Positions 4,706 through 20,589 of a DNA stretch of 21,278 bases are shown here, in pieces. The translations under genes were made by a program, and so were the position numbers. Below the pieces are notes generated by a model. The model saw nothing but the letters and a program-made list of their open reading frames with translations. It had not been told where the DNA came from and did no database searches. The stretch spans positions 1 to 21,278 of IMG/VR virus record IMGVR_UViG_3300009151_000482; one strand, written 5' to 3'. How positions within the stretch are numbered: position 1 is the stretch's first letter; the number at the start of each line of letters is the position of its first letter. This stretch comes from a virus.

Positions 4706-7700
4706 ATGCCCAAATCGATTGAGCAGATGCAGCAAGAGATTGCCGCCGCCACACCACATGCTGGCAAGAAGGAAAGCAAGAAAAAATTCCTTAAGCAAAG
4801 TAAAGTCAAAGATGTCCTCTATCGTGGTGGTCACGGTTATAAAGAAATGCCTGAAGGATTTTTGAAGGGCGAGGCTCGTCCTAACTACGCTACGTTTGCA
4901 TCGACATCTCCCCATGTTGCATCTAGCTATGCTGGTCAAGGTGGGCAGTGGGCGCATCCTGATGAGGTTGGCGCTGTTGTCCCTATGCATATAAAAGCGC
5001 ACACGTTACATGAGTTCCCAGTCCCGCCTGATCGGTATGGACGACCTAACTTTGATATGTTTGAATTTGATCGGCAGGCTAGAGGATTGGGGCCGGGTCA
5101 CGCGTTAGTTGCTCGGAAAGTATATGACGGTGGGCCGAGGGCATCGAAAATAACAGACCCTGAAATGCTATACAGTTACCCAAGTGACATCTACGCATGG
5201 AATACAGGGACTGAAGTTAAATCAGCCTTATCCAAAGCCAGCGGAGGCTTGGCGCACATGGCTGACGGTGGACAACCATTCTACTCACCGGTAGATCAAG
5301 CCATCTCCAAGCTGAGTCAAGCCAAAGGCACTGGCGATCAATACCTATCGATGATCCGCAACACCCACGGCGTCAAGCCACAGGAGATTGAGGATCGCGG
5401 TCTGGAACAGAAGATGACTGGCAAGATGTCGATACCTGATGTGCAGCGCATTGCATCAGAGAATCCCATGCCGAAGATCACTGAAAGCACCGCGCACCAG
5501 AGTGATTTCTATTACGCTGGCAAAGGAGCGGATGGTAAATACTATCTGCACACTGACAGTGGCAAGCCGATTGCTGGCCCTTACGACATGGCGCATGACG
5601 CTGAGAGCAACATAGAAAAGTTTCAGGCGAACAAGCCGCAGTATGCGAAGTATCAACTGCCGGGTGGTCAGAACTACCGCGAGATCAAGCTACGGATACC
5701 AACCAAAGGTAAAGATAAATTTAAATCCAAACACTTTGAAGAGCCGAATGTCCTAGCGCACGCCAGAGTCTCTGACCGGACTGGCCCCAATGGTGAGAAG
5801 ATTCTCCACGTTGAGGAGATACAGTCTGACTGGCATCAAACTGCGCGTGATCTTAGGAACGAAGAGATCGACCGTCTTGTTGGCAGAGGCATGCCAATAG
5901 AAGAGGCAAAGAAGTATGTTCCCGCCAACTTTGGTTACAGGGGAAACATTAGAGAGCTTCCATCCGGCTATCAGGTGCAAGAATTTAATTCTCCGAGTGG
6001 ATCAAAAGAATACAGAGTGTTTAGTCCAAAAGGAAATCTGTATGCGTCAGGACTGAGTTCTGAATCCGCAACGAAGAACGCGATTGATAACCTTAATGGT
6101 GGCAACAAAGTCCCTGATGCTCCGCACAAGAAGGACTGGCATGAACTGGTGCTGAAGCATCTGCTGAATCACGCCGCGAAGAATGGCTATGACAAGATGA
6201 TCATCACGCCCGGCGAGGAACAAGCGAAGCGTTATGACCTGAACAAGCATATCGGTCAAATAGACTACAAGCACAACCCTAACAAGACTGTGAGCCTATT
6301 GGCGACAGACAAGAACAACGGACTTACTGCAATTCATGAAGAAGACTTGCCGTATCACAATATTCATAAGCATGTCGGCAAGGAGATGGCGCAAAGGATC
6401 ATGGCGGGTGAGGGAACTCCTAGAGCCTATGCAGATATTTCTGATGGCAAGATGCAGATAGGCGACCTTGATCTGAAGGTTGGCGATGAGGGTATGAAGG
6501 GTTTCTATAATGACATCGTCCCGTCCTTCCTGAACAAGTATGGCAAGAAGTGGGGCGCTAAGGTTGGGCAATATAATTTGTCAGTTCACCCTCATCAAGC
6601 CGACAACCAGTATGCAGTCCATTCCTTTGACATTCCTCCGCAGATGCGTGAAGAGATCGTCAACAAGGGTCAGTCCCGTTATGCCAAGGGTGGCAGCGTC
6701 AAGCCCATACCTGCAGAGGCTGGCAGCACTCCGGTAAAGGAAGGTCATGTTCGCCTATACCACCAGACTGATGGGGATAACCTTCGCAAGATTGAGAAGG
6801 AAGGCTTGCTGCTAAAGCATGCCAAGGGGATAGAAGGGCCTAGAGCTATCTACGCTGGCGAGACCCCGTTCTATGGCAGTGCCAAGAGCAGACCTACGCT
6901 TGAGTTCCAAGTTCCCAAAGAGCATTGGCAGTCGCCGTTTGTATTGCACGATGTAGCGCCGAAAGACATTATCGCTGCTCACTATCCTTGGCATTCTCAT
7001 GCGCGATATCTTGAATCTGAAGATAACAAAGAAGCAAAGGAAAATGAATTGTCTGGCAAACATGACAATCTTGGTGGTGATACTGGGAAGGCTGTTCAAT
7101 ACATCAAAGAAAAGTATGGCGTCAAAAAAGCCAAGGGTGGCGATGTAAGCGTGAGCGATATGCGTCGTGCGCTGATGGCTAAGGGTGGTGATGTCAAGGA
7201 GCCAAAAAGCACTGTGCCTGCATACAAGCTATTCCGCATGGACAAGAAGCAGCCGGGCAAGCTCTTCCCGCTATTTGTAGATGCAAAGACGCCTGTCGAG
7301 AAGGATGAGTGGGTTAAGGCTAAGGCTGGAGAGATGGCTGGTGAGAAGGTGAAGTCTAAGATTGGCCCCTTGGCCTACAGACCGGGCTGGCACGCGGGTG
7401 ATCTTCCGATTGCAACTCACATTGGTGAAAAGTCTGATTCCAAGCTAAACAAGCCTGACCGCCGCCCCCATAATCAAGTGTGGGCTGAGATCGATATGGC
7501 AAATGATGTAGACTGGCAAAAGAAAGCCAACGAACGCGGCATGAACAAGAGTGGGAAACTTATTGCAAAGAACGCGCACATCACTGACCAAGTTCCGAAG
7601 GGTGGTCACTATCGCTACAAGACCAATCCGAATATGACGGGTAGCTGGCTGATTGGCGGCGAGATGAAAGTGAAGCGAGTTCTGCCTGATGCAGAGGTTC

Positions 7701-7816
7701 AGAAGATCAACAAGAAAGCAAAGGTAAAAGACTTGCCGCGAGAGAAGCCTCTGAATCTGAAGGAATGGGGCTTCAAGAATGGTGGGTCGATGTCTTTGCT
7801 GCAATCTAAGGATTAA
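4706..7816 (+). CDS. polyvalent-type protein with two ADP-ribosyltransferase-like modules, 1036 aa
   Basis: A very large multidomain protein of the polyvalent type, which phages and mobile elements often inject with their DNA. Module 1 (about 30-170) has VLYRGG (R40) and ASTSPHVASSYA (65-76), resembling the R and STS motifs of ART-fold enzymes. A middle region (about 320-525) has HVEEIQSDWHQ and NGYDKMIITPGEEQAKRYDL, which I recognise from polyvalent phage proteins. Module 2 (about 680-800) has RLYHQTDGDNLRKIEKEGLL and AIYAG, again ART-like. The C-terminal domain (about 838-1005) has LAYRPGWHAGDLP and HYRYKTNPNMTGSWLIGG, also seen in such proteins. Modules are separated by GG motifs (179-189, 659-665, 809-814, 825-830). 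Catalysis is unproven; the third ART glutamate is not identified. AGAGGATT precedes the start. Confidence 0.75.
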   Translation: MPKSIEQMQQEIAAATPHAGKKESKKKFLKQSKVKDVLYRGGHGYKEMPEGFLKGEARPNYATFASTSPHVASSYAGQGGQWAHPDEVGAVVPMHIKAHTLHEFPVPPDRYGRPNFDMFEFDRQARGLGPGHALVARKVYDGGPRASKITDPEMLYSYPSDIYAWNTGTEVKSALSKASGGLAHMADGGQPFYSPVDQAISKLSQAKGTGDQYLSMIRNTHGVKPQEIEDRGLEQKMTGKMSIPDVQRIASENPMPKITESTAHQSDFYYAGKGADGKYYLHTDSGKPIAGPYDMAHDAESNIEKFQANKPQYAKYQLPGGQNYREIKLRIPTKGKDKFKSKHFEEPNVLAHARVSDRTGPNGEKILHVEEIQSDWHQTARDLRNEEIDRLVGRGMPIEEAKKYVPANFGYRGNIRELPSGYQVQEFNSPSGSKEYRVFSPKGNLYASGLSSESATKNAIDNLNGGNKVPDAPHKKDWHELVLKHLLNHAAKNGYDKMIITPGEEQAKRYDLNKHIGQIDYKHNPNKTVSLLATDKNNGLTAIHEEDLPYHNIHKHVGKEMAQRIMAGEGTPRAYADISDGKMQIGDLDLKVGDEGMKGFYNDIVPSFLNKYGKKWGAKVGQYNLSVHPHQADNQYAVHSFDIPPQMREEIVNKGQSRYAKGGSVKPIPAEAGSTPVKEGHVRLYHQTDGDNLRKIEKEGLLLKHAKGIEGPRAIYAGETPFYGSAKSRPTLEFQVPKEHWQSPFVLHDVAPKDIIAAHYPWHSHARYLESEDNKEAKENELSGKHDNLGGDTGKAVQYIKEKYGVKKAKGGDVSVSDMRRALMAKGGDVKEPKSTVPAYKLFRMDKKQPGKLFPLFVDAKTPVEKDEWVKAKAGEMAGEKVKSKIGPLAYRPGWHAGDLPIATHIGEKSDSKLNKPDRRPHNQVWAEIDMANDVDWQKKANERGMNKSGKLIAKNAHITDQVPKGGHYRYKTNPNMTGSWLIGGEMKVKRVLPDAEVQKINKKAKVKDLPREKPLNLKEWGFKNGGSMSLLQSKD

Positions 7817-7817
7817 T

Positions 7818-10094
7818 ATGCAACCTACACTGGCACAGATGCGGATAGCTTTGGGGAAGACTAGAAATCCCATTGAGATTCAGAATATCGGATCGAACGA
7901 AGCGCCTAGCATGTCTCCGAAAGCATTCGTCTCGCCTGATGGCATTGATAATGGCTTATCGACTGGTGGCGTATCGATGAGCAACGGTATGCCGGTTGGT
8001 GGCATTGACATGAGCCAGCAGCAGGCTGGTCAGCAGATGATGCCGCAGCAACAAGGTGGACTACCACCGCAAGGACAGCCGCCGCAGCCTCCGCAAGGGC
8101 AGCAGGGCGCTCCTACAGGCGCTCCAGCAGGCGCTCCACCCATGGGTAACATGCTATCGATGACGCCGCAGGGACAGGCTCTGGGTGCGATGGGAGGGGC
8201 GCAGCAGCCTCCTAAGCCGCAGGGCATGAAGAGCGGTGGATCGGCTAAATCTGTAGTTGACATGAAAAAAGAAATAGAAGGTAAGGGGGAGAAAGTCTCC
8301 AGCCGTATCTTGTTTCCCGCAGAAGGTTCTGGTGGTGTCAAAGGCATCAAGGCTCCTCGCCATATGTGGTTTGGTAGCAAGACAAACGAGGGTCTGAATG
8401 AAATCAACAAGGCGCGTGCTTCTGTCTATGGTGGCGAGAATAGAACTCCGCTGACAATTGGTCAGGTTGGCGATACGCACAAAAAAACTTTGGAAGAGCA
8501 TTTCAACAAGCCGATTGAGCAACAGAATTCTGATGAAAAGGCTGCGCTGGATAGGCTGCGTGCGGCAAAGCACATTGGCAAGACAGCGAACACTCTGGAC
8601 GAGAGCGAGAAGCTTGATACGGTCAGGCATGAGCATGACAAGCAGGGTCGAACCTACATTGGCTTTGCATCAAAGGGTGTTGCCGGTCACGCGCTGTATA
8701 CGTCTGGTCAGGGTGAGAACCAGAAGCATCATGTGCTGAACACCTGCCCCGGTCAGACCACCGGTTGTGGCGGTGGTGTTGATGAGCATGGAATTGTGGA
8801 TACCAGCAAAGGCACTTGCTTTGCACCGGTAGCTGAGACTCAATACGCTGGTGCGGCTATTCGCAGAACGTGCCATGAGCAGGCAAAGCATGATCCCGCC
8901 ATGACCAAAGACTGGATTCTGGCGCATACAGGATCACTGCGTAATGCGGCGCGTCTTGCTGACAAAAAGAACAATCGCTTGTTGTTCAGGCCGAATGTGG
9001 TGGATGAGACAGACGTTTCTTCACGGTATGCCATCAGGCATCTGAACAAGCAACGCAAGGCAGAGGACAAGCCTAGAATCATCGCAAACTCGTATGGCAA
9101 GACCAATGAGTTGCATGATCCTGAGAATGGATATTACGTCACGCATTCCAATGTTGGCCCAAAAACAAAACAGGGTAAATCGATTGCTGAGAACATTGGT
9201 CGTGATAAACAGCGTGTTAGGAATACGATTACTGCGACCAAAGCAAATGGCGAAGACTTCAAGAATGACGATAACAATGTGACGCCGCCTAAGAATTCCT
9301 ATATGGTTACCAATGTGAAGCGCCATTCTGCAATGGATAAGAAGATGCAGAAGTCGATCACGCATGCTAAGTATTGGTCAACCGGTAGACCGGTTAGTGG
9401 ACTCTCTGAGTCAGAGAAAGAAGAAGGATCGGAAGGTCACTTCAGTGGCAATGGTAAGCCTACGACGCCTGACAAAGCGCACTATGGGCATTTGGTAGTC
9501 AATGACAAGCGTTATGATTATCAGAAGCAACACATTCTTCATTCGCGTCTGGTGCAAGTTGGCAAGAATGAAGACGGCACTCCGCACATGATTCCGACTG
9601 ACTCGCGCTTTAAGGATGAAGACTTCCTGCCAAAGAATCGGTTCAAGACGAAGAATGGAAAGAACGCTGGCGCTATCTTGATGACGACGCCTACAGAGTC
9701 AACGAGTAATGTTGGGCATAATTCATCGTTCACGCATAATGTCGATGAGAGCCATCTTGAGCATGCCAAGCGTAACAGCGGTGAATACCAGATCGATTCG
9801 CCGCATGAGCAAGAAGCTTCTTCTGGCAAAGAATATGTTGCACCGAAAGCAATTCAATTTAAAGCTGATGGTGGTTCTGTGCATCATGGTGAAAGTTTTG
9901 GAGATCACATGGAATTTCCTGAGCAAAGCTTTGCTGCGATGTCGCATCTTGCCCATCGCCGCGATCCAGATGAAGCGGGAGACATAGTGCAGACCAAGGC
10001 ACATGGCGGTCATGTCCATAAGAAATCTGTGGTTGTTCACAAGAATCAGGACACTATGAAATACGAAATGATCATGCGGAAAAAGGCTAAATAA
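7818..10094 (+). CDS. large unknown protein with a four-cysteine cluster, 758 aa
   Basis: Residues 1-60 are ordinary, about 65-135 are a Gln/Pro/Gly/Ala-rich disordered linker, and about 160-560 form a conserved-looking core. The only four cysteines are C310, C317, C334 and C352, in TCPGQTTGCGGG, GTCFAP and RRTCHE. The TCPG..C....C(F/Y)A arrangement is reminiscent of the phage Gp88/DUF7227 type of proteins, and the following RNAARLADKKNNRLLFRPNV and DETDVSSRYAIRHL could match its core; this is a tentative remote likeness. A zinc or iron-sulphur site is plausible. GG motifs lie at about 138, 685 and 729. The start at 7818 follows AAGGATT; the gene overlaps the portal gene by one base (TAATG). 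Function unknown. Confidence 0.75.
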   Translation: MQPTLAQMRIALGKTRNPIEIQNIGSNEAPSMSPKAFVSPDGIDNGLSTGGVSMSNGMPVGGIDMSQQQAGQQMMPQQQGGLPPQGQPPQPPQGQQGAPTGAPAGAPPMGNMLSMTPQGQALGAMGGAQQPPKPQGMKSGGSAKSVVDMKKEIEGKGEKVSSRILFPAEGSGGVKGIKAPRHMWFGSKTNEGLNEINKARASVYGGENRTPLTIGQVGDTHKKTLEEHFNKPIEQQNSDEKAALDRLRAAKHIGKTANTLDESEKLDTVRHEHDKQGRTYIGFASKGVAGHALYTSGQGENQKHHVLNTCPGQTTGCGGGVDEHGIVDTSKGTCFAPVAETQYAGAAIRRTCHEQAKHDPAMTKDWILAHTGSLRNAARLADKKNNRLLFRPNVVDETDVSSRYAIRHLNKQRKAEDKPRIIANSYGKTNELHDPENGYYVTHSNVGPKTKQGKSIAENIGRDKQRVRNTITATKANGEDFKNDDNNVTPPKNSYMVTNVKRHSAMDKKMQKSITHAKYWSTGRPVSGLSESEKEEGSEGHFSGNGKPTTPDKAHYGHLVVNDKRYDYQKQHILHSRLVQVGKNEDGTPHMIPTDSRFKDEDFLPKNRFKTKNGKNAGAILMTTPTESTSNVGHNSSFTHNVDESHLEHAKRNSGEYQIDSPHEQEASSGKEYVAPKAIQFKADGGSVHHGESFGDHMEFPEQSFAAMSHLAHRRDPDEAGDIVQTKAHGGHVHKKSVVVHKNQDTMKYEMIMRKKAK

Positions 10095-12514
10095 TGGAAC
10101 CTCAAGAAGAATATCCGATAGAAGAGCAATCGGACGGCAGTGCTGTTGTTGATCTTCCCGAAATGAATACGGAAGAGCAACCTGATGGATCGGCGATCAT
10201 CACGATGGATGGGCCTGAGTTCAACCCTGAGTTCTATGACAACCTTGCCGAATCATTTACGGAATCTTCGTTGGGTGAGCTATCGTCTCGTTTCCTTGAC
10301 TTTCTGGAGACTGACAAGCAGTCGAGGGAGCAGAGAGACAAGCAGTATGAAGAGGGCATCAAACGGACTGGGATGGGGAATGACGCCCCCGGCGGTGCTA
10401 CCTTCATGGGTGCCAGCAAAGTCGTCCATCCTGCGATGGCAGAAGGCTGCGTAGACTTTGCAGCGAGGGCGATCAAGGAACTGTTCCCGCCTGACGGCCC
10501 CGTCAAGACCAAAGTCCTTGGCAAGATGGACGACATCAAAGCGGAGAAGTCTGAGCGCAAGCGTGACTTCCTGAACTGGCAGATCAGTGAGCAGATTGAA
10601 GAGTTCCGCGATGAGCAGGAACAGCTACTGACCCAACTGCCTTTGGGTGGATCGCAATACTTCAAGCTCTGGTTCGATGAGCAGAAGAAACGTCCCTGCG
10701 TTGAATTCCTGCCAATTGACCGCGTTATCCTGCCGTTTGCTGCAACCAACTTCTACACCGCGCAGCGTGCTGCCGAGGTGCATGAACTGACGCAGTATGA
10801 GTTTGACCGCCGCATCCGCACAGGAATGTATCGTGATGTTAGTGTTTCGAGGGCTTCCGGCACTCTTGATCAAAATAGAGTCGAACAAGCTAACAACAAG
10901 GTAGAGGGTAAGCAGTTCGAGACGAATAAAGACGGTATCCGCAAGGTTTATCACATCTATTGCTTCCTCGAAGAGGATCAGGACGATAAAACCAAGGGTG
11001 ATTCAGCGCCTTACATCCTGATGATTGATGAGCTTGGGAGTGAGGTCGTTGGTCTCTACCGGAACTGGGAAGAGCAAGACGAGAGCCGCACCAAGCTAGA
11101 TTGGGTTGTGGAGTTCAAGTTTATTCCTTGGCGTGGAGCGTATGCGATTGGCCTGCCGCAACTGATTGGCGGTCTGTCTGCTGCGCTTACGGGGGCTTTG
11201 CGTGCGCTTCTGGATACGGCGCACATCAACAACTCAGCGACCATGCTGAAGTTGAAGGGTGCGAAGATCAGCGGTCAGAGTCAGCAAGTGGATGTGACGC
11301 AGATTGTTGAGATCGAAGGTGCGCCGGGTGTGCAGGACATCCGTCAAATTGCGATGCCTATGCCGTTCAATCCCCCTTCTCCGGTGCTATACCAGCTTCT
11401 AGGCTGGCTTGATCAAGCCGCCAAGGGGGTTATCACCACCAGCGAAGAGAAGATCGCTGATGTGACCTCCAATACGCCTGTAGGCACTACCCAAGCCCTG
11501 ATTGAGCAAGGCGCTGCAGTGTTCAGTGCTATCCATGCTCGACTGCACAACTCGCAAGCGCGTGTGCTGAAAGTCTTGTGCCGCTTAAACCGCTGGCACT
11601 TTGATGAGATGGAAAAGGGTGATGTCATTACTGATCTGGAAATTACCAGAGAGGACTTTGACAAGAATACTGACGTAGTTCCGGTCAGCGATCCGCACAT
11701 ATTCTCAGAAACGCAGCGGATGGCGCAGAACCAAGCGGTGTTGATGTTGGCTGAGAAACATCCGCAGAACTTCAATATTGCTGGTGTGTTGAATCGGGTC
11801 TTGAAACAGATGAAAGTTCCGAATATCAACGAACTGCTGAAGGATGTCCCTGCGCCTGAGCAAAGAACGTCTGCAGATGAGAACGCTGCAATGCTGATTG
11901 GTCAGCCTGCGTATGCTTACCTGCAGCAGGATCACATAGCTCACATCCAAGATCACTTGCAATTTGCGATGAATCCTTTCTTGGGTCAGTCTCCGTTTGC
12001 CGATCCTAGTTACTTGAACAACCTGATTGAGCATACCAAGCAGCACATGACTCTGTGGTATCTGAACAGGTCGAATGGATATGTTGAAGAGTCAATTGGC
12101 AAGCCGGTTGATGATTACGATGATCCGAAGCTGACGGCGGCTATCGACAAGGTCTATACGACTGTCGGCGCTCACGTTATGTTGGACAGCCAAGAAGTAT
12201 TTGGTCAATTCCAGCAAGCCTTGCAGAACCTTGTTCAGATGGCGCAACAACGCAAGAGCCAGCAACAGCCGCTGCCGCCTGATGCACAGGTGGTCAAGGA
12301 TACGAGCATGGCTGAGACGCAGCGCAAGACGCAGAAGGATCAGGCTGACAATCAGTTGGCACAAGCCAAGCTGCAGAATGAGATTCAAGAGCATACGATG
12401 GACAACACTACAAAGATTGACATCGAAAACTCTAAGCTGACGCACCAAACCATTCAACATGCAAATGAACTGGCGGCAACGCCACCCCCTGCCGCGCCTG
12501 CGGCACCACAATAA
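10094..12514 (+). CDS. portal protein, P22 type
   Basis: Forms the dodecameric ring at the capsid vertex through which DNA is packaged and ejected. The 806-aa length fits the large P22-like portals rather than the shorter siphovirus type. Recognisable segments are FMGASKVVHPAMAEGCVDFA (about 99-118), QLPLGGSQYFKLWFDE (about 180-195), VEFLPIDRVILPFAATNFYT (about 204-223) and a long helical C-terminal barrel-like region rich in Gln (about 720-806). The extreme N-terminus has two copies of an EEQ-x-DGSA-x-(V/I) motif (about 7-16 and 27-36). Start and stop are tight: it overlaps the upstream stop by one base and is followed by AAGGAG and the next gene. Identification is firm. Confidence 0.9.
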   Translation: MEPQEEYPIEEQSDGSAVVDLPEMNTEEQPDGSAIITMDGPEFNPEFYDNLAESFTESSLGELSSRFLDFLETDKQSREQRDKQYEEGIKRTGMGNDAPGGATFMGASKVVHPAMAEGCVDFAARAIKELFPPDGPVKTKVLGKMDDIKAEKSERKRDFLNWQISEQIEEFRDEQEQLLTQLPLGGSQYFKLWFDEQKKRPCVEFLPIDRVILPFAATNFYTAQRAAEVHELTQYEFDRRIRTGMYRDVSVSRASGTLDQNRVEQANNKVEGKQFETNKDGIRKVYHIYCFLEEDQDDKTKGDSAPYILMIDELGSEVVGLYRNWEEQDESRTKLDWVVEFKFIPWRGAYAIGLPQLIGGLSAALTGALRALLDTAHINNSATMLKLKGAKISGQSQQVDVTQIVEIEGAPGVQDIRQIAMPMPFNPPSPVLYQLLGWLDQAAKGVITTSEEKIADVTSNTPVGTTQALIEQGAAVFSAIHARLHNSQARVLKVLCRLNRWHFDEMEKGDVITDLEITREDFDKNTDVVPVSDPHIFSETQRMAQNQAVLMLAEKHPQNFNIAGVLNRVLKQMKVPNINELLKDVPAPEQRTSADENAAMLIGQPAYAYLQQDHIAHIQDHLQFAMNPFLGQSPFADPSYLNNLIEHTKQHMTLWYLNRSNGYVEESIGKPVDDYDDPKLTAAIDKVYTTVGAHVMLDSQEVFGQFQQALQNLVQMAQQRKSQQQPLPPDAQVVKDTSMAETQRKTQKDQADNQLAQAKLQNEIQEHTMDNTTKIDIENSKLTHQTIQHANELAATPPPAAPAAPQ

Positions 12515-12524
12515 GGAGAAGCAA

Positions 12525-12680
12525 ATGTCTGATCAAGAACAGAAGGGTATTTATGTTAAGCAGCACAAGCGTCTTGCCATGGGTGAGAAGCTGACTGGTG
12601 CTTCCATGCAGCCGAAGGGCAGCGACAATAAATCCAACAAATCGAAGGGTGGCCTATCACACGTTAAAAAACAAAAATGA
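12525..12680 (+). CDS. small basic protein with GG motif, 51 aa
   Basis: A 51-aa highly basic, Lys/Ser/Asn-rich protein that ends with SKGGLSHVKKQK. The ATG at 12525 has a strong AAGGAG eight bases upstream, next to the portal stop. It carries one copy of the K-x-GG motif shared with larger proteins in this cluster. It overlaps the next gene through ATGA at 12677-12680. Its position inside the head module and its charge suggest a minor virion or DNA-associated protein, but I know no family for it. Confidence 0.7.
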   Translation: MSDQEQKGIYVKQHKRLAMGEKLTGASMQPKGSDNKSNKSKGGLSHVKKQK

Positions 12681-12856: not shown

Positions 12857-12857
12857 C

Positions 12858-12891
12858 GACTCACTCCGAGTCAAGCCGCGCTGCAAAGCGC
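12858..12891 (+). other. two adjacent small hairpins
   Basis: GACTC (12858-12862) pairs with GAGTC (12868-12872), and six bases later GCGCT (12878-12882) pairs with AGCGC (12887-12891) around a GCAA loop, a stable GNRA tetraloop. They occupy the 75-bp gap before the GroES-like gene. No U-tract follows, so they more likely shape the mRNA than end transcription. Confidence 0.5.
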
Positions 12892-12931
12892 ATAACGATG
12901 CACCTGAGATATGGTGTTTAGGAGAAGTAAG

Positions 12932-13387
12932 ATGAGTGAATTAGCAAAGATAGTGACGTTTGAATCGTCAGATGACATTCCGAGTCAAGCCGACTTGGAT
13001 TGGGCTTTCCCGAAAATCTCTTCGGGCATGGAGCCGTTTGGTGGACGCATCATTGTCCAACTCAGACGGATCAAGAAGAAGACGGAGCGCATCGTTCTCG
13101 TTCAAGAAACGAAAGATAACGAGAAGTGGAACAACATGATCGGTAAAGTGATCGCTGTTGGGCCTCTTGCGTATAAGAATCGCGACACTATGCAGTCATG
13201 GCCTGAAGGCTCATGGGCGCAGGTTGGCGATTATGTCCGTGTTCCTAAATGGGGTGGTGATCGCTGGGAAATCAAAGTTCCCGAAGGCGATAGAGACGAT
13301 GATCCTGTCCTTTTCATGACGTTGAATGATCATGAATTGATTGCAAGGGTCGTTGCAAACCCACTTTCCTTCAAAGCTTACGTCTGA
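12932..13387 (+). CDS. GroES-like cochaperonin
   Basis: A 151-aa protein whose core (about residues 30-145) reads as a Cpn10/GroES fold: FGGRIIVQLRRIKKKTERIV is the first strand and start of the mobile loop, GKVIAVGPLAYKNRD is the conserved GKVxAVG segment, WAQVGDYVRVPKWGGDRWEI matches the VKxGDxVxxxxyGG segment, and LNDHELIARVV is the terminal strand. In GroES the mobile loop docks on GroEL. Phage-encoded versions, such as gp31 of T4, alter GroEL so that it can fold the capsid protein. The location between portal and scaffold fits this. The start at 12932 has AGGAG about eight bases upstream. A 30-residue N-terminal extension and the acidic GDRDDD insertion are unusual. Confidence 0.78.
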   Translation: MSELAKIVTFESSDDIPSQADLDWAFPKISSGMEPFGGRIIVQLRRIKKKTERIVLVQETKDNEKWNNMIGKVIAVGPLAYKNRDTMQSWPEGSWAQVGDYVRVPKWGGDRWEIKVPEGDRDDDPVLFMTLNDHELIARVVANPLSFKAYV

Positions 13388-13397
13388 GGATATGAAA

Positions 13398-14402
13398 ATG
13401 GCTGAAAAAAATGATAAGCCAGAAGAAATTAATGTTACGGAGAGCCAAGACGGTTCTGCAACAGTAATTTTGACTGAAAAGATGATCGGTGATGACGACA
13501 ACGCTGAACCCGCAGTCAAGGCTGAGGGCGGCGCTGTATTGGAAGAAGATACAGACCATCCTGATGATGATGAAGAGCTTCGGCAGGCTAAAAGAAACCG
13601 TCGTCGCGCCAAGAAAGACCTGATCCGCAAGACGAATCAGGAAAAGGATGCTCGTTTGACTGTTTTGAACAGGGAAAACGAAGAATTCCGTCAACGCCTA
13701 AGCCAACTGGAGCGCAATACCAAGAGTGAGCAAGTAACTCGCATCGAAAAGGGTATAGAGGACGCCAATGTGCGCCTTGAATACGCCAAGATGAAGCTTG
13801 CAGAGGCCACAGAGAACAATGATGGTCAAGCAATGGTCGAGGCTCAGACTCTTTGGCAGAGCGCACAGGAAGAAGTGCGTAATTTAGGCTACATGAAGCA
13901 AACGGCTAATCAGGAGCTTAATAAGCCCCAAAATGTCCGAGAAGAGCCAGCGGTTGACCCTGAAGTTGCGAGGTTTGCGTCGAACTGGGTAGCCAAGAAT
14001 AGCTGGTATGACCCTAGCGGCAGGGACTCCGACAGCAGGATCGCAAAGAAGATTGACGAACTGATGACGGCGCAGGGCTGGAATCCTACCGATAGAGATT
14101 ATTGGGAAGAATTGGATAGCCGCTTGCAAAAAGAGTTGCCACATCGCTACAATGATGGTAATGATAGTGCATATCGTAATGAGAACGAATCCCGTAACGA
14201 AAGACGACCAAGGAATATTGTGGGAAGTGCTGGGCGTGAAGCTTCAGCGGCTTATGGTGGTTCCAACCGCACCCAACTTGTTTTGTCACCCGAAAGAGTC
14301 AGGGCGATGAGGGAAGCTGGCGCTTGGGACAACAAAGAGCGCAAAGCGAAAATGATCCAAGAGTTCATAAAATATGACCGCCAAAACGGTCGCCACAATT
14401 AA
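13398..14402 (+). CDS. scaffolding protein (putative)
   Basis: A 334-aa, charge-rich protein immediately upstream of the capsid genes, as expected for an internal scaffold that shapes the prohead and then leaves. The acidic N-terminus (about 1-75) carries one ESQDGSATV motif like those in the portal. A long predicted coiled coil spans about 75-180 (for example LNRENEEFRQRLSQLERN). The C-terminal part contains a conserved WVAKNSWYDPSGRDSDSRIA block and ends in a basic helix that could bind the coat protein. The ATG at 13398 is preferred to 13392 because GAGGA (13386-13390) is seven bases before it but only one base before the other. Confidence 0.75.
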   Translation: MAEKNDKPEEINVTESQDGSATVILTEKMIGDDDNAEPAVKAEGGAVLEEDTDHPDDDEELRQAKRNRRRAKKDLIRKTNQEKDARLTVLNRENEEFRQRLSQLERNTKSEQVTRIEKGIEDANVRLEYAKMKLAEATENNDGQAMVEAQTLWQSAQEEVRNLGYMKQTANQELNKPQNVREEPAVDPEVARFASNWVAKNSWYDPSGRDSDSRIAKKIDELMTAQGWNPTDRDYWEELDSRLQKELPHRYNDGNDSAYRNENESRNERRPRNIVGSAGREASAAYGGSNRTQLVLSPERVRAMREAGAWDNKERKAKMIQEFIKYDRQNGRHN

Positions 14403-14419
14403 TCTAAGGGGAAAACATT

Positions 14420-14968
14420 ATGGGTGAGTCTCGACTTAAGAAATCTCTCAGTGCTGGTGGACGCGAAGATCGCGCAAGCGAGGATGCAAGCCGTTCAGCA
14501 CCGGAAGACAAGTTCATTTCTACGCAGGAACGTCGCAGGATGTGGAGCGAGGAATGGACGCAATCAGCATTGCCAAAACTGCCCGAAATAACTGGGTGGC
14601 ACCTTTGCTGGCTTTCAACAACCAACAGCTACGACAGCATCGATAAGCGGATTCGCTTGGGGTACGTTCCAGTTAAGTCTGAAGAGATACCCGGCTATGA
14701 AGACTATCGCGTGAAGTCTGGTGAGCATGTAGGCCATGTGTCATGCAACGAAATGTTGTTGTTCAAGTTGCCTATGGATATTTATCAAGAGATCATGGTT
14801 TATCAGCATCACGATAAGCCGCGTGAAGAAGCCGAAAAGATTCGGGTTCAAGCTGAAAGTCTCCAAGGGCAACGCGATAGCAACGGTCGTTCGCTTGTAC
14901 AAGTTGAGGGCGAAGGTATTGGCAGTATTGAAAAGCAACCAAACCGTACACCCGTATTTGCGGGTTAA
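14420..14968 (+). CDS. conserved head-module protein of unknown function, 182 aa
   Basis: A 182-aa soluble protein between the scaffold and capsid-module genes. The N-terminal 35 residues are charged and probably disordered. The core has GWHLCWLSTTNSYDSIDKRI (about 59-78), RLGYVPVKSEEIPGYEDY and a C-terminal helix LLFKLPMDIYQEIMVYQHH (about 112-130) followed by a charged helix. AAGGGGA precedes the ATG by about seven bases. I have the impression that similar proteins occupy this slot in related environmental podovirus-like genomes, but I know no biochemical role. A head-assembly or minor structural role is inferred from its place only. Confidence 0.75.
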   Translation: MGESRLKKSLSAGGREDRASEDASRSAPEDKFISTQERRRMWSEEWTQSALPKLPEITGWHLCWLSTTNSYDSIDKRIRLGYVPVKSEEIPGYEDYRVKSGEHVGHVSCNEMLLFKLPMDIYQEIMVYQHHDKPREEAEKIRVQAESLQGQRDSNGRSLVQVEGEGIGSIEKQPNRTPVFAG

Positions 14969-14982
14969 TCAAGGAGAAAGTT

Positions 14983-15579
14983 ATGTCTGCAACTAACGCT
15001 CCGTTCGGCTTGCGCCCTGCGTTCCATCCCTCTGGTCTGGATCGCGCTCAGGCGCTTGCTGGCGGCATTGTTTCTGGTTATGCCAGCAACATTTTCAAAG
15101 GTCAACCCGTCCAATACGGCACGACCGCCAATAGCGGCACTCTCGGCACCATTATCGTAGCTGGTGCTACCGGTGCTTTTGTTGGTGCTTTTTCTGGTGT
15201 CCAATGGACGGATACGACGGGCCGCGCTCGTGTTTCCAACTACTGGCCTGCCAGCACTGCGTATACCGCAGGGACTTGCACTGCTTATTTCTACAACGAT
15301 CAAAACATCGTTTATGAAATTCAAGGCGATGCAACGATTGCACAAACTGCAATTGGGAACGAATACAACTTCAGCGCAGTTACCGCTGGCTCTTCTACCA
15401 CTGGCTTGTCGGCTTGCACCCTTGGTGTATCGACTGCTGTTGGTAACGGTGTCCAAGGTCAAATGCGTATCGTTGATTTGGCTCCGTATGTTGATAATGC
15501 TTGGGGTGATGCGTTCACTATTGTTCGCGTCGTTGTCGCTAACTCGCAATTCTTCGGTGCTGTCACCGCGATTGCTTAA
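14983..15579 (+). CDS. putative capsid decoration or minor head protein, 198 aa
   Basis: A 198-aa protein rich in Ala, Gly, Thr and Ser, low in charge, with alternating strands and the starting pattern NAPFGLRPAFHPSGLDRAQ. Segments such as NIFKGQPVQYG and GAFVGAFSGVQW suggest a compact beta fold. It sits 17 bases before the major capsid gene and has a strong AAGGAG ribosome-binding site, so it is probably made in large amount with the capsid protein. Composition and position suggest a head decoration or cement protein. There is no signal peptide. A role as second capsid component is an inference; no named family is certain. Confidence 0.7.
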   Translation: MSATNAPFGLRPAFHPSGLDRAQALAGGIVSGYASNIFKGQPVQYGTTANSGTLGTIIVAGATGAFVGAFSGVQWTDTTGRARVSNYWPASTAYTAGTCTAYFYNDQNIVYEIQGDATIAQTAIGNEYNFSAVTAGSSTTGLSACTLGVSTAVGNGVQGQMRIVDLAPYVDNAWGDAFTIVRVVVANSQFFGAVTAIA

Positions 15580-15596
15580 TTAAGGGAGTCTAGACA

Positions 15597-16511
15597 ATGG
15601 CTGCTCCAATGCGTAGTACTGACTTTCGGAGTATCGTTGAGCCGATCCTCAACGAATGCTTCGACGGTGTTTATGACCAACGTGCCGATGAGTGGAGCCG
15701 TGTGTTCCGCGAAGAAGATGGCATTCCCCGCAACTATCACGAAGAGCCTGTCCTGTACGGCTTTGGTGCTGCACCGCAACTGCCTGACGGCACGCCGGTT
15801 ACGTACCAACAGGGTGGTGTGCTGTTCCTCAAGCGTTACCTCTACAAAGTGTATGGCCTTGCCTTCGCTTTGACCAAGGTGCTGGTTGAAGACGGTGATC
15901 ACATCCGTATCGGTCAAGTTTATGCACGCCATCTGGCGCAATCTTTGGTGGAAACCAAAGAACTGCTGGGTGCCAACGTGTTGAACGTGGCTTTCAACGC
16001 TGCCTATCCGGGCGGTGACGGCGTGTCGCTGATTAGCACTGCTCACCCTATCGTGAACGGCACTTTCAGCAACCAACTGACGACCTCTGCGAACCTTTCG
16101 CAAACTTCGCTTGAGCAAATGCTCATTCAAGTTCGTCAAGCGGTGGACAACAACGGTAAGAAGATTCGTCTCGTTCCGCGTCAACTCGTGGTCGCGCCGG
16201 GCAACATCTTCCAAGCTGAAGTCCTGCTGAAGAGCGTTCTGCGTGCTGGCAATGCAAACAACGACATCAATCCGGTCAAGTCAATTGGCTTGCTGGATGA
16301 AGGTGCCGCTGTTCTGTCGCGTCTTACCTCGCCTACGGCGTGGTGGGTGCAGACGGATGCGCCGGAAGGCATGAAGCTTCTGATGCGTCGTCGCCTTGAA
16401 AAAACCATGGAAGGTGATTTCGAGACCGACAGCATGCGTTACAAAGCGACTGAGCGTTACGATGTCGGCTTTACCGACCCGCGTGCTATGTATGGCACTG
16501 CTGGCGTCTAA
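15597..16511 (+). CDS. major capsid protein
   Basis: The 304-aa main shell protein, most likely of the HK97 fold. Supporting patterns are the mid-protein DGVSLISTAHPIVNGTFSNQ (about 141-160), RLVPRQLVVAPGNIFQAEVL (about 190-209), SPTAWWVQTDAPEG and the C-terminal R-rich TDSMRYKATERYDVGFTDPR segment; these match the conserved core of many phage coat proteins, including the Mu gpT-like group. Its place after scaffold and decoration genes agrees. There is no N-terminal delta domain or linked protease, consistent with the separate scaffold gene upstream. AAGGGAG precedes the ATG, and a very strong hairpin follows the stop. Confidence 0.88.
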   Translation: MAAPMRSTDFRSIVEPILNECFDGVYDQRADEWSRVFREEDGIPRNYHEEPVLYGFGAAPQLPDGTPVTYQQGGVLFLKRYLYKVYGLAFALTKVLVEDGDHIRIGQVYARHLAQSLVETKELLGANVLNVAFNAAYPGGDGVSLISTAHPIVNGTFSNQLTTSANLSQTSLEQMLIQVRQAVDNNGKKIRLVPRQLVVAPGNIFQAEVLLKSVLRAGNANNDINPVKSIGLLDEGAAVLSRLTSPTAWWVQTDAPEGMKLLMRRRLEKTMEGDFETDSMRYKATERYDVGFTDPRAMYGTAGV

Positions 16512-16524
16512 GCAATAAGGGCTA

Positions 16525-16549
16525 TGCGGGGGAGCCTAAATCCCCCGCA
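16525..16549 (+). terminator. strong hairpin after the capsid gene
   Basis: TGCGGGGGA (16525-16533) pairs perfectly with TCCCCCGCA (16541-16549) around a seven-base loop. This is the most stable stem seen in the window. It begins 13 bases after the capsid stop codon. There is no U-tract after it, so it may be an mRNA 3'-end stabiliser or a partial terminator that raises capsid expression over downstream genes. Confidence 0.55.
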
Positions 16550-16584
16550 CTACATTCGGCTAAACTTTTCAAGGAGCAAGCCAA

Positions 16585-17550
16585 ATGCCTCAATTTTCAG
16601 ATGATCTGTTTCTGGGAGCCGCACAGGGCTATCAGGGCATAGGTATTTACGCGAACTCAGCTACTTTTACGGGTTCAATTTCCACTACAACTCTTACTGT
16701 TACTGCCATGTTGTCGGGCGATCCGATCACTCTTGGCATGTATCTGTCTGGCGCTAACGTCGCGACTGCGAACTGCTATATTACTGCGTTCGTAACCGGC
16801 ACTGGCGGCACTGGTACCTACACGGTTAGCGCATCGCAAACTGCTGCAAGCGCAACTATTGTTGGTGCTGGCAATGCATTCTTGAACGATCCGGCTCCGA
16901 TGGATGTTGGCGTTGGCCCTCTTGGCCGCGTCTATATCTGGGATAGTGTCCCGCAGGCTTTGATTGCAAACAACATTGCGGCTACGCAAACCGCTGCTGG
17001 TGCAGGTTCATTGACCCTGACTGCTGGCACCAACGTGAAATCAGTTGTTCGCGCTGACGGCGTGACTGTTCTCCAGTTGGATTGCCCTCGCGCACTGAAG
17101 GTAGTTTGCTCAACGACTGCGCGTGCGATGACGGTCAGTGGCTATGATGTTTACGGTCAGGCGATGACTGAAACTATCACGGTGGCTGTTGCTGGTACTG
17201 CCGTTTCAGGTAAGAAGGCATTCTACCAAGTGACTGGCGTGACCATCGCCGGTTCTGCGACCGCTTGTATTGTTGGCACGACTGATATTTTGGGTTGTCC
17301 GGTGCGTATTCTGGACAATGCTTATATCGTTCATGCTGGCTACAACAACACGCTTGCAGACAATGCTGGAACCGCTACCGCTGCTGATACTGCCGTTGCC
17401 AGTGCAACCACTGGTGATGTTCGCGGCACGTTCTTGCCTGCATCCGCAACAGACGGTATCAAGCGTTTGGTTGTCACAGTTGCTCTTCCGGCAATTTCGG
17501 TTGGCCCGAACGCAACCCGCACTGGCGCGTTTGGCGTCACGCAAGCTTAA
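16585..17550 (+). CDS. putative head decoration/fibre protein with inserted beta module, 321 aa
   Basis: A 321-aa Ala/Thr/Gly/Val-rich structural-type protein. The N-terminus ([18 protein letters not shown]) and the segment [20 protein letters not shown] (about 104-123) look like one continuous domain interrupted by a module at about residues 27-95. That module runs from [19 protein letters not shown] to [20 protein letters not shown] and resembles a beta-rich module found inserted in many phage structural proteins. The C-terminal half contains [28 protein letters not shown] and [19 protein letters not shown] precedes the start. The position directly after the capsid gene supports a decoration or head-surface role. 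Confidence 0.75.
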
Positions 17551-17561
17551 AGGGGAATGAC

Positions 17562-19481
17562 ATGGGTCAATTCAAACCGATGGTGAAGATGGAAACCACT
17601 GAGCCTTCAGTCATTCTGAAGCTTAAAAGGGGTGGCAAGGTAGCCGCAAAAGCTTCGATGGAATCTAGTCACAGCCCGATGCAAAATAAAACTCGTGCCA
17701 TGCATGCCGCTATGCATTCAGAGAGTGGCAAGGCTCCGAAGAAGCCGTCAATGTCGGAGCGTCGTCGTGCCATGAACCCGCAGATGTATAAAAAGGGTGG
17801 CAAGGTCGCTCATAAGCTTGATGGCGGGATGATGGGCGCTCCTGCGGCTATGCCGCCTGCGATGCCGCCTGCTATGCCTGCTGCTCCGATGCGTGCGGCT
17901 CCGGCTGCTATGGCTCGTCCTGCGCTGGCTGGCATGACGCCTGCTCAACGTGCTGCGCGTGCCGCAATGGTTCGCAAAGCCCTGACCGGCATGAAAAAGG
18001 GTGGCGCTGCCAATTCCAAATGCGCGTCTCTGGAGCGCGAACTTAAGCACCATGAGTCGCTCTCTGCGTCGAAAGCGCACAAAGCTTCGGGTGGTTCTAT
18101 TAGCAAGTTCGTTAACACCAAAGTCGATGATGGCGATCATCATGACAAAGCGCATGGCACTGGAGAAGTCAAAGAAGGCAAGCCGGGCGGGTATGCGATG
18201 GGTGGCACCATCTCTGGTAATGCGAAAAAGTATGAAAACACCAAGATGAATACGGCTACGCGTGATAATTCCGGTGGTAGCACTGGTGGTGTTCGCATGG
18301 GCAATGCCGGTGGTTTCAAAAAAGGCGGCAATGTTTCTAATTGGGAAAACCGTCCTGCTGACACCGCGAAGAAAGGCAAATCCAACACCTCGACCGGCAA
18401 TGTCAGGCTTGGTAATGCTGGTGGCTACAGCAATGGAGGGAATACCTCAAAAAAAGCCTACGCTACGGGGGGAATTGTTAACGATGGTAAGGCAGTAAAA
18501 ATGCCGCGCCATTCCGTTAGTCGCCCCGTAGCGAATAGCCTGCAATCCGGTACCTTTGCAAAGGGCGGTAAAGTCGAAAAGGAGGAGAAGCCAAACCTTC
18601 GCCTTATGAAGACTCATACCGGCCCTAAAGGGCATGTAGCCAAGGTTTATAAAGATCGTGACTGGGATGAGCTTCGCGTTAAGTTCTATGATCCAGAAGG
18701 TAAGCATTACAAAGATGCTGATTACCATACGGATGACAAGCAAGATGCTCATGACACCGCTACGGGTCAATTAAACCGCTACAAAAAAGGTGGCTCTGCG
18801 AAGAGGTTTGCTGACGGTGGTATTACGACCCTTGGGTCTATGTTTGCAGATGGAACCACTCCGAAAGGTGGTTTTACTGACACTCCACTTCCCGGCGATC
18901 CCCCTCCAAGTGGTGGTAGTGGTAGTGGTGCTTGGGGTGGGCTAGGAAAAGTTCGTGGTGGCGCTGATGATATTAATAGTGCTTTAAATAATATTAGCAA
19001 ATCTACTTCTGACACAAAGGCAGCACTTGATGGTAGTGGACTTGATAGTGGTGGATTGGGAAAGCCGGGTAATGATCAAGCTCAGTTAAAAAAAGGCGGC
19101 AGAGTAAGGCATAAGGAGTATGCCAAAGGTGGTGATGTCAATTTGTGGACTAAGTTGAATCCTACGTTGAAAGATAAATATAACAGGGTAAATGCTCCTG
19201 CGTATTCTTCTTCGGCTGTAGATAAATCAATTGAGTCTTCCAACCGATCCGGTAAAAAGATTGGAAAATCTGAAGCAAGTAGCATTCACAGGCTCCTAAA
19301 AGGGCGCTATGCAGAAGGTGGTGTTGCAGAAAATAAGATAGAACTTTCAGAAATTCGTAAAAGTGGTGGGCCTAAAAATTTGTTGAATCAAGTATTTGAA
19401 AAAAGAAAACAAATGAAAGAAGGAAAAGGCACATCAAATAAAGAATTGATGGAGCGGTATCAAAAAATGCGGCGCAGTTAA
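17562..19481 (+). CDS. GG-motif repeat protein, 639 aa
   Basis: A 639-aa basic, Gly/Lys-rich and probably largely disordered protein. It holds about 15 copies of an A/K-x-GG-x-(V/I/T) motif, such as KKGGKVA, YATGGIV, FAKGGKV, YAKGGDV and YAEGGVA. Residues about 90-130 are Ala/Pro/Met-rich. Residues about 181-296 contain three imperfect repeats of 37-41 aa, each with a Gly-Gly-(Y/F) turn followed by the motif (PGGYAMGGTIS, AGGFKKGGNVS, AGGYSNGGNTS). A compact domain at about 348-410 contains HTGPKGHVAKVYKDRDWDEL. No known family is recognised. It lies among structural genes and has a GGGGA ribosome-binding site, so a virion or internal protein is plausible. Confidence 0.75.
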   Translation: MGQFKPMVKMETTEPSVILKLKRGGKVAAKASMESSHSPMQNKTRAMHAAMHSESGKAPKKPSMSERRRAMNPQMYKKGGKVAHKLDGGMMGAPAAMPPAMPPAMPAAPMRAAPAAMARPALAGMTPAQRAARAAMVRKALTGMKKGGAANSKCASLERELKHHESLSASKAHKASGGSISKFVNTKVDDGDHHDKAHGTGEVKEGKPGGYAMGGTISGNAKKYENTKMNTATRDNSGGSTGGVRMGNAGGFKKGGNVSNWENRPADTAKKGKSNTSTGNVRLGNAGGYSNGGNTSKKAYATGGIVNDGKAVKMPRHSVSRPVANSLQSGTFAKGGKVEKEEKPNLRLMKTHTGPKGHVAKVYKDRDWDELRVKFYDPEGKHYKDADYHTDDKQDAHDTATGQLNRYKKGGSAKRFADGGITTLGSMFADGTTPKGGFTDTPLPGDPPPSGGSGSGAWGGLGKVRGGADDINSALNNISKSTSDTKAALDGSGLDSGGLGKPGNDQAQLKKGGRVRHKEYAKGGDVNLWTKLNPTLKDKYNRVNAPAYSSSAVDKSIESSNRSGKKIGKSEASSIHRLLKGRYAEGGVAENKIELSEIRKSGGPKNLLNQVFEKRKQMKEGKGTSNKELMERYQKMRRS

Positions 19482-19495
19482 AATAAATAGGACGG

Positions 19496-19511
19496 GGGGC
19501 TTCGGCTCCCT
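19496..19511 (+). terminator. UUCG-tetraloop hairpin, weak terminator candidate
   Basis: GGGGGC (19496-19501) pairs with GCTCCC (19506-19511), with one G-U wobble, around a TTCG loop. The following sequence TGCTTTATA has only a short T-run. It lies 15 bases after the stop of the 639-aa gene, and its loop is the same as in the hairpin at 810-825. Confidence 0.5.
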
Positions 19512-19529
19512 GCTTTATAGGAGAGATTT

Positions 19530-19949
19530 ATGACTATTACCGCTACATCACAAACATTGTTTGATGGTGAAAGAATCGCCATTATGAAGTTCTACGCTTC
19601 AATGAGTACGACTGAAAATGAGTCTGCTGTTGCTAAAGTGACTCCATCGGCTCTTGCGGCTTCGGCGGCAGGCGGTGCTTGCGATGCTGTGAGCATTTTG
19701 AAATGCACTGCATTGACTCACGGTCTTGAGGTTCAAATGAACTGGGCTGCTACGGCTCCTGTTGTTATTGAAACAATTCCGCAAAATAATGCTTACACGC
19801 AAGATTTTTCTGCGATTGGTGGGTTGACAAACAATGCTGGTTCGGGGAAGACTGGAGTAATTACTTTTACTACTTTAGACGGCTCGGCTGGAGATGCATA
19901 CACAGTAATTCTTGAAATGCAAAAGCATTACGTTAATCCGGTGTCTTAG
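19530..19949 (+). CDS. putative structural protein, 139 aa
   Basis: A 139-aa neutral protein rich in Ala, Thr and Ser, with strand-like segments that suggest a beta-sandwich. Notable are GERIAIMKFYASMSTTENES (about 13-32), GLEVQMNWAATAPVVIETIP (about 68-87) and a glycine/threonine-rich end GDAYTVILEMQKHYV. The shape recalls small head or neck proteins of environmental phages, but I cannot name a family. AGGAGAG lies seven bases before the ATG. It follows a hairpin and is nearly contiguous with the next gene (TAG, one base, ATG). Confidence 0.75.
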   Translation: MTITATSQTLFDGERIAIMKFYASMSTTENESAVAKVTPSALAASAAGGACDAVSILKCTALTHGLEVQMNWAATAPVVIETIPQNNAYTQDFSAIGGLTNNAGSGKTGVITFTTLDGSAGDAYTVILEMQKHYVNPVS

Positions 19950-19950
19950 T

Positions 19951-20331
19951 ATGCCAAGCAAATCACCTTCTCAGCATCGCCTGATGGCGGCGGTAGCGCA
20001 TAACCCTGCGTTTGCCAAGAAGGTGGGCATTCCTACTAAAGTAGGAAAAGAGTTTGATCGTGCCGACAAAAAGGGTATGGCTAAGGGCGGTGTTTCTCTT
20101 GCTGTTGGTAGGGGTGAAAAGCTTTCCACAAAACAAGGCGCTGGGCTTACGCAGAAGGGGCGCGATAAGTATAATCGTGAGACAGGTAGCCATTTAAAAG
20201 CTCCGCAGCCGCAGGGTGGTTCTCGCAAGGATTCATTCTGCGCTCGTATGGCTGGCGTCGTGAAGAATGCATCAGGTGATGCGCCTAGAGCAAAAGCTTC
20301 ATTACGCCGCTGGAAATGTTCTGGCTGGTAA
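19951..20331 (+). CDS. small basic protein with DUF6321-like C-terminus, 126 aa
   Basis: A 126-aa strongly basic protein. The N-terminal part has PSQHRLMAAVAHNPAFAKKV (about 6-25), the middle has one GG motif (MAKGGVSL), and the C-terminus has KLSTKQGAGLTQKGRDKYN, TGSHLKAPQP and KDSFCARMAGV, followed by RRWKCSGW. The C-terminal pattern matches what I know as DUF6321, a domain of unknown function common in environmental phages. Two cysteines (C107 region and near the end) might bind metal. No Shine-Dalgarno is evident; the start lies one base after the previous stop, implying re-initiation. Role unknown, perhaps DNA-binding. Confidence 0.72.
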   Translation: MPSKSPSQHRLMAAVAHNPAFAKKVGIPTKVGKEFDRADKKGMAKGGVSLAVGRGEKLSTKQGAGLTQKGRDKYNRETGSHLKAPQPQGGSRKDSFCARMAGVVKNASGDAPRAKASLRRWKCSGW

Positions 20332-20343
20332 AGGATAAGAATT

Positions 20344-20589
20344 ATGAAAAGCGTAATTACTGGTCAGCCAAAATATATAGATAAAAAATTAAATACCATG
20401 CGAAAGCAAGGGTATGTAGTTCAAAAGAGTCATACTCATCCAGACGGTAGCCGCACTTATGTTTTAGATTTGCCTTCAGACAAAACATTTTACGGAAATA
20501 CCGAAACTATCAATAAAGATACTCCGCAAACTGAAAAGCGTGGCGGTGTTATTAAAAAGCACAGTAAATCAACCAAACATACTTGGTAG
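20344..20589 (+). CDS. hypothetical small basic protein, 81 aa
   Basis: An 81-aa basic protein with a short N-terminal helix (KYIDKKLNTMRKQGYVVQ) and a strand-like HTHPDGSRTYVLDLPSDK segment (about 31-48). It ends with KRGGVIKKHSKSTKHTW, which includes one copy of the GG motif shared by several proteins in this window. AAAGGA precedes the ATG by about nine bases. No family is recognised. The gene sits between a basic DUF6321-like gene and the connector gene. Confidence 0.72.
   Translation: MKSVITGQPKYIDKKLNTMRKQGYVVQKSHTHPDGSRTYVLDLPSDKTFYGNTETINKDTPQTEKRGGVIKKHSKSTKHTW

Follow-up and report, generated by a model that had tools for sequence, protein, structure and literature searches.

An apparent address label for virus-particle cargo: a short GG peptide on unrelated late proteins of a phage lineage

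A late gene cluster and its recurrent peptide

The window, by which is meant the whole stretch of DNA analysed here, is a 21,278-base fragment from an IMG/VR phage record (IMGVR_UViG_3300009151_000482). Its late gene cluster runs from TerS and TerL (PF03237) through a 1036-amino-acid (aa) protein, a 758/771-aa protein, the portal (PHROG 1216), small proteins, a GroES-like protein (PHROG 3188), a scaffold-like 353-aa protein, the capsid (PF25209), a 321-aa protein, a 639-aa protein and further small proteins to a tail adaptor, whose counterpart in the relative G004 is a likely PF24175 match. The subject of this report is a seven-residue peptide, best written [Y/F/M/K]-[A/K]-x-G-G-x-[V/I/M], that recurs in the two large proteins encoded between terminase and portal, in the 639-aa protein and in several smaller ones (all of these, like the other window copies and modules located below and the capsid gene, are on the + strand). 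It is a real, strongly selected short peptide, borne by unrelated proteins of one capsid lineage and of some other phages.

The phage group is very common in freshwater and marine settings: at least 598 capsid-related loci are present in the viral collection, 80 of which were examined as relatives, and the cultured members that bear the tag include the pelagiphages HTVC023P and HTVC027P. MW202545, a complete circular relative of 57 kb, has the same gene order as the window. The major capsid gene (15597-16511), which is without the motif, served as a lineage marker in searches.

A first-pass annotation of the window had listed such peptides in six proteins of the cluster. All the copies that it quoted are where it placed them, and its figure of "about 15" for the 639-aa protein is fair (10 copies by the strictest pattern, 13 by the working pattern, 16 by [AK]xGG); the list is incomplete, having missed two copies in the 1036-aa protein (KASGGLA, FKNGGSM) and one each in the 758-aa (MKSGGSA) and 353-aa (KAEGGAV) proteins. 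Could composition alone generate these copies? With the pattern [YFMK][AK][KDHNERS]GG and 5000 residue shuffles, the 639-aa protein has 9 matches against 0.25 expected, the 1036-aa protein 6 against 0.15, and the 758-aa protein (771 aa from the first ATG, at 7779) 3 against 0.09, with p ≤ 2e-4 in each case; chance or composition as the source of the motif is ruled out by this enrichment. The lone copies in the 51-, 126- and 81-aa proteins are individually weak (best p 0.02-0.07, depending on pattern); those of the 51- and 126-aa proteins are backed by their relatives, and all three are also backed by C-terminal copies in many other small proteins.

Tallying the residues around every GG yields one logo common to the 639-, 1036- and 758-aa families: position -3 has Y, F, M, L or K, position -2 has A or K, position +1 has S or V (often K or E) and position +2 has V or I. 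The same tally in head structural proteins yields no such logo. At the 101 A[polar]GG sites of the 1036- and 758-aa families, position -3 is Y/F/M/K in 82 (background 18%) and position +2 is V/I/M in 77 (background 13%); the sequences indicate that the logo arose independently in unrelated families. A[polar]GG is retained in orthologues (55/60 relatives of the 639-aa protein, 17/17 of the 758-aa protein and 15/21 of the 1036-aa protein). Neither of the two sequence-based grounds for refutation named by the first-pass annotation, composition and absence from orthologues, is therefore borne out. Its statement that portal, capsid and terminase lack the motif holds for the window and for the relatives, in which 0/59 portals, 0/66 capsid proteins and 0/17 large terminases carry A[polar]GG; the window portal has a single loose match, A-P-GG-A-T, that is not conserved.

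C-termini, module borders and codon choice

When the tagged proteins of the relatives (the 639-aa family left out) were clustered with the tag masked, 32 mutually unrelated tagged families remained, which bears out the proposal that proteins without common ancestry share the peptide. Of 23 small families, 20 have it in the last 40 residues of the protein (7.9 expected, p ≤ 2e-4). In large proteins it lies at the edges of modules: among 91 large multi-motif proteins there are 305 cases in which a module-like local alignment ends no more than 8 residues from a motif, against 92 expected and at most 135 in 500 simulations. Inside 15 Pfam/PHROGs domain matches there is no motif at all (9.1 expected), and a motif lies no more than 20 residues from 16 of their 30 edges (5.5 expected). 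Phages outside the group have homologous modules that carry no tag: one is a 69-aa protein of Pseudomonas phage Alpheus, another is part of a protein of Roseobacter phage CRP-212.

In six long genomes the motif occurs in the homologue of the 639-aa protein, in the gene or genes between terminase and portal, in the small proteins encoded between the 639-aa homologue and the tail adaptor, and in some scaffolds; replication and early genes have almost no copies, and proteins of the tail region have a few single weak matches. Tagged genes thus accompany head genes in these six genomes, and they do so also in cassettes between capsid and adaptor genes.

Is it the peptide or the DNA that is selected? 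Copies in the window use synonymous codons freely, and copies within one locus in other branches of the group are 86% identical as protein, with 51% of the identical residues specified by a different codon. Because codons vary so freely, selection acts on the peptide, and a linker or regulatory repeat at the level of DNA is unlikely; a DNA-level element of any of the kinds considered (recombination site, linker, regulatory repeat) was rejected, there being no nucleotide conservation beyond that of the protein.

The densest array is in the 639-aa protein (17562-19481), the multi-copy "hub", which is mostly disordered by prediction and has a net charge of +54. The copies counted by the working pattern are LKRGGKV (aa 21, 17622-17642; GG in 61/61 aligned relatives), YKKGGKV (aa 76, 17787-17807), MKKGGAA (aa 144, 17991-18011; 58/58), KASGGSI (aa 174, 18081-18101; 43/43), FKKGGNV (aa 252, 18315-18335; 44/44), YSNGGNT (aa 289, 18426-18446; 61/61), YATGGIV (aa 300, 18459-18479; 60/61), FAKGGKV (aa 332, 18555-18575; 63/63), YKKGGSA (aa 407, 18780-18800), FADGGIT (aa 416, 18807-18827), LKKGGRV (aa 509, 19086-19106; 49/56), YAKGGDV (aa 520, 19119-19139) and YAEGGVA (aa 583, 19308-19328). 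Relatives of the hub hold 7-13 copies, and the GG pairs are near-invariant in a MAFFT alignment in which the average residue is kept in 48% of relatives (an upper figure, as MAFFT tends to align GG pairs). The model contains one very confident module, aa 346-409 (18597-18788), matched by PHROG 7884 at 350-406 and bordered upstream by FAKGGKV and downstream by YKKGGSA. Pfam has no family for the hub and PHROG 7884 covers the folded module only, so that no curated glycine-rich repeat is matched. The module at 18597-18788 is homologous to a tagless, stand-alone 69-aa protein of Pseudomonas phages that a few records label "putative lysis protein".

The 1036-aa protein (4706-7816), encoded between terminase and portal, is a multidomain protein of polyvalent type. 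Its AlphaFold model has a single confident block, aa 191-659 (5276-6682), between motifs at 185-188 and 659-663: MADGGQP (aa 185, 5258-5278) directly precedes the block, and YAKGGSV (aa 659, 6680-6700; GG aligned in 17/18 relatives) directly follows it, as would be expected from the earlier suggestion that the copies in this protein fall between domains. KASGGLA (aa 177, 5234-5254) lies further upstream and KAKGGDV (aa 808, 7127-7147) downstream; MAKGGDV (aa 824, 7175-7195) precedes a module matching PHROG 30118 (aa 838-1024, 7217-7777), which has one GG motif 10 residues away and another 2 residues away, the second being FKNGGSM (aa 1023, 7772-7792), about 10 aa from the C-terminus. The PHROG 30118 module ends this protein but starts a protein of another locus, L023; in each case a GG motif stands at the border of the module.

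The neighbouring 758/771-aa protein (7779-10094) is a GP88-like protein of polyvalent type (PF17338 at 316-410, below the curated cut-off), with MKSGGSA at aa 150 of the 771-aa reading frame (8226-8246; GG in 12/12 relatives), KADGGSV at aa 695 (9861-9881) and KAHGGHV at aa 740 (9996-10016), near the C-terminus. Several effector domains per chain, ART-PolyVal among them, are found in the families of both large proteins: PF18760 is present in L113, whose best segment is 78% identical to the 1036-aa protein, and in L042, a relative of the 758-aa protein in which ParB-C (216-365), a GG motif (365), ART-PolyVal (370-491) and another GG motif (495) follow one another. The 1036-aa protein of the window itself has no Pfam match at 0.01; fold searches with its model and with that of the hub gave no match at E ≤ 0.001, and sequence searches with the capsid protein, used singly or as a profile, matched no solved structure.

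Among the shorter proteins, KSKGGLS (12639-12659) lies near the C-terminus of the 51-aa protein (open reading frame 12459-12680), and EKRGGVI (20533-20553) about 12 aa from that of the 81-aa protein (20344-20589). The scaffold-like 353-aa protein (13341-14402) has an acidic version, KAEGGAV, at aa 60 (13518-13538); many of its 70 relatives have the acidic version at aa 31-60. In the 126-aa protein (open reading frame 19912-20331), MAKGGVS (20077-20097) stands between an N-terminal SPSxxQ module and a C-terminal DUF6321 (PF19846). Both of these are modules widespread in other phages: the N-terminal stretch, SPSxxQHxxM...HNPxFAKKxGIP, is also a stand-alone 58-aa protein of the phiKZ-like phage SL2 and a "structural protein" of Klebsiella phage Eowyn, and DUF6321 also closes large proteins such as Syn9 gp114. 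Overlaps in which the start codon of a small open reading frame falls inside the preceding tag are probably an artefact of choosing the first possible start. The GroES-like co-chaperonin gene (12911-13387) between portal and capsid is found in nearly all annotated relatives, GG-tagless phages included.

Spread among phages and longer tag classes

The distribution of the peptide was sampled by comparing back-translated peptides with permuted ones in 2.9 million viral contigs. The collection contains at least 120 stretches that encode YKKGGKV and, in total, 39 that encode its permutation YKGKGKV. A capsid, portal or adaptor gene of the lineage accompanies 98 of the first 119 YKKGGKV loci listed and 0 of the 39 permuted-peptide loci (some marker queries came from L171, itself one of the YKKGGKV loci, the others from the window and named isolates). 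For the replicate peptide FAKGGNV, 12 of 61 loci have a lineage marker against 0 of 54 for its permutation, and reading frames with at least two motifs number 21 against 0. The basic version of the motif is restricted mostly to this lineage. Searches of the open-access literature for the tag strings returned no relevant description.

In other branches the GG core opens longer, lineage-specific C-terminal tags, which at YKKGGKV loci are shared by series of adjacent genes between capsid and adaptor that have no relation to one another. One class reads [YM][KA]KGGKVSSASKRADGCAxRGKTRGKMV and another YKKGGKVRGAGIARKGVRPCKMR; in both, the residues after GG are conserved over some 20 positions. A third ending has GG close to a final Cys. 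Cassettes of adjacent, unrelated small genes bearing the class SSASKRADG[CI]AxRGKTRGKM, apparently undescribed, lie at L193 1250-2751, L242 3407-4704 and L240 344-1559, and in L230 and L171. The class RGAGIARKGVRPCKMR is found in the equivalent gene interval of similar phages (L146 6784-7340, L150 9999-11230, L227 1-507), and in L146 and L227 a small module, DxCYxKVKxxYKVFPSAYASGA, stands behind the GG core. No isolate record resembles the SASKRADG- or RGAG-tagged small proteins. Relatives by capsid that lack the motif are Caulobacter phage RLK, CRP-901, QDWS535 and MW202796.

A docking tag for head cargo and its alternatives

What might such a peptide do? The reading that we judge likeliest, with a probability of roughly 0.48, is that it serves as a short linear docking tag, bringing cargo to the head in a lineage marked out by its genes for capsid, portal and tail adaptor. 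We are led to it because tagged genes are co-located with head genes, because the tag is C-terminal in small proteins and repeated between the effector modules of large ones, and because it is restricted to a lineage. The small accessory proteins encoded between capsid and tail adaptor, tagged at the C-terminus, and the polyvalent effectors encoded between terminase and portal, tagged at module borders and near the C-terminus, would be made together with the head and recruited to it during assembly through one putative receptor (capsid, scaffold or portal), packed, and then ejected with the DNA. The hub, a flexible array of tags, would serve that site as a multivalent centre, as its lining or as its organiser. 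End-to-end fusion of small tagged proteins would produce just the layout observed in the polyvalent proteins, one tag per junction. The motif, its conservation, the selection on protein, the positions and the restriction of the basic version mostly to this lineage are observed; the binding, the receptor, the packaging and the ejection we infer.

Known systems offer partial precedents. The capsid targeting sequence (CTS) of phage T4 is an N-terminal stretch, present as a single copy in each protein and cut off by the head protease; the GG tag, by contrast, stands at C-termini or between modules, commonly as multiple copies, and has another sequence, and no head protease was found. The likeness is that each is a short peptide common to otherwise unrelated accessory proteins: the CTS is shared by internal proteins IPI-IPIII and suffices to bring foreign proteins into the head (PMC3012670). 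In phage P1 the first 30 residues of DarB direct a reporter to the capsid (PMC9024508), a case of a targeting stretch on a very large antirestriction protein of polyvalent type that is packed in the head; that signal is N-terminal and known for one protein, whereas the GG motif extends over dozens of families. The cargo-loading peptides of encapsulins are short, mostly C-terminal, found on unrelated cargo, and attach to the inner surface of a shell with the HK97 fold (PMC7355545); their sequence differs, the system is not a phage, and binding is proven there, whereas for the GG tag it is conjectured. The families of the two large proteins resemble the polyvalent proteins of Iyer et al. (2017) in their ART-PolyVal, ParB and GP88-type modules and in their virion gene context. 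Iyer et al. predict that phage polyvalent proteins are packed in heads; a search of their text turned up nothing on linkers, glycine or low-complexity sequence, and the motif passages that came up deal with other motifs (PMC5512222).

Several observations weigh against the docking tag. The total for FAKGGNV, 61 against 54 for the permuted peptide, is not clearly above background. Similar motifs are also present in giant proteins of phages in which no lineage marker was detected, among them a 3272-aa protein at L342 728-10543 (- strand) that has 12 [YF][AK][KDN]GG motifs beside domain edges; the motif therefore extends past the lineage studied. Phage RLK has a capsid 77% identical and lacks the hub, the polyvalent genes and the tag, so that the capsid alone does not require it. 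DSL-LC04 and the cultured Planktothrix phage Pag-Yong1 are tagged and have no array in the stretch read, which rules out a strict need of the hub for tags. Lastly, no virion proteomics for tagged proteins or for this lineage was found in the accessible literature.

The main rival, one of the options raised by the first-pass annotation, is a processing site: a phage or host protease would cut at GG, separating the modules of polyvalent proteins and trimming C-terminal peptides. The adenovirus protease and pS273R of African swine fever virus do cut at GG sites, and the motif lies exactly at module borders and near C-termini. PMC5512222 places P1 DarA and DdrB among polyvalent proteins known or predicted to be proteolysed. 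Yet no Pfam peptidase family (E ≤ 0.001) is represented in the 49 proteins of G004, the nearest long relative (a divergent or host enzyme being possible), the positions that follow GG are conserved in the two longer tag classes, and the hub would fall into some ten mostly unstructured pieces. Processing is in our judgement unlikely. Less probable again is that aromatic-Lys-Gly-Gly repeats bind DNA or RNA, or phase-separate in the manner of RGG boxes, and so concentrate proteins on the genome. The disorder and basicity of the hub, the presence of Y or F in 58% of its copies and the mean net charge of +3 of the C-terminal tags would suit such a role; against it, an acidic residue precedes GG in 46% of the copies borne by large proteins and in 56% of those in scaffolds, and copies in scaffolds have a mean net charge of -5.3, whereas those in the hub are basic. 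The hydrophobic +2 position is retained despite this variable charge, and conserved aromatic or hydrophobic flanks combined with variable charge suggest a protein-binding linear motif over electrostatic DNA binding. The annotation had offered capsid or DNA binding as a means of packing: the packing of cargo is the part best supported (by position, gene context and lineage restriction), and simple DNA binding falters on the charge beside GG, which is not conserved.

Least probable of the three is a passive junction, a flexible linker or evolutionary scar at the joins of modules that has no binding partner. Its position at module borders and its disorder are what a scar would present, but a scar would not retain a hydrophobic -3 and V/I/M at +2, would not be purified at the protein level while its codons diverge, and would not occupy the C-terminus of single-module proteins. 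The same considerations divide the earlier suggestion of a genetic linker: the peptide is indeed at module junctions, but free codon use speaks against a DNA-level element, and it is equally common at C-termini, where nothing is linked.

A broader form of the docking-tag proposal, which we think rather doubtful, would make the GG core an address code widespread among tailed phages: a head receptor would read it, branches would have evolved C-terminal extensions of their own (SSASKRADG..., RGAGIARKG...), polyvalent effectors would be fused, separately tagged cargo modules, and the multi-tag protein would organise them in the head. The tag looks like an undescribed address label for virus-particle cargo. 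If it is a packing label, then sequence alone would tell which of the many uncharacterised small proteins of these very common aquatic phages are carried by the virion and are the first to enter the host; the delivery of polyvalent effectors in phages in which no head protease is detected would be explained; and a short, portable peptide would be at hand for loading proteins into phage heads.

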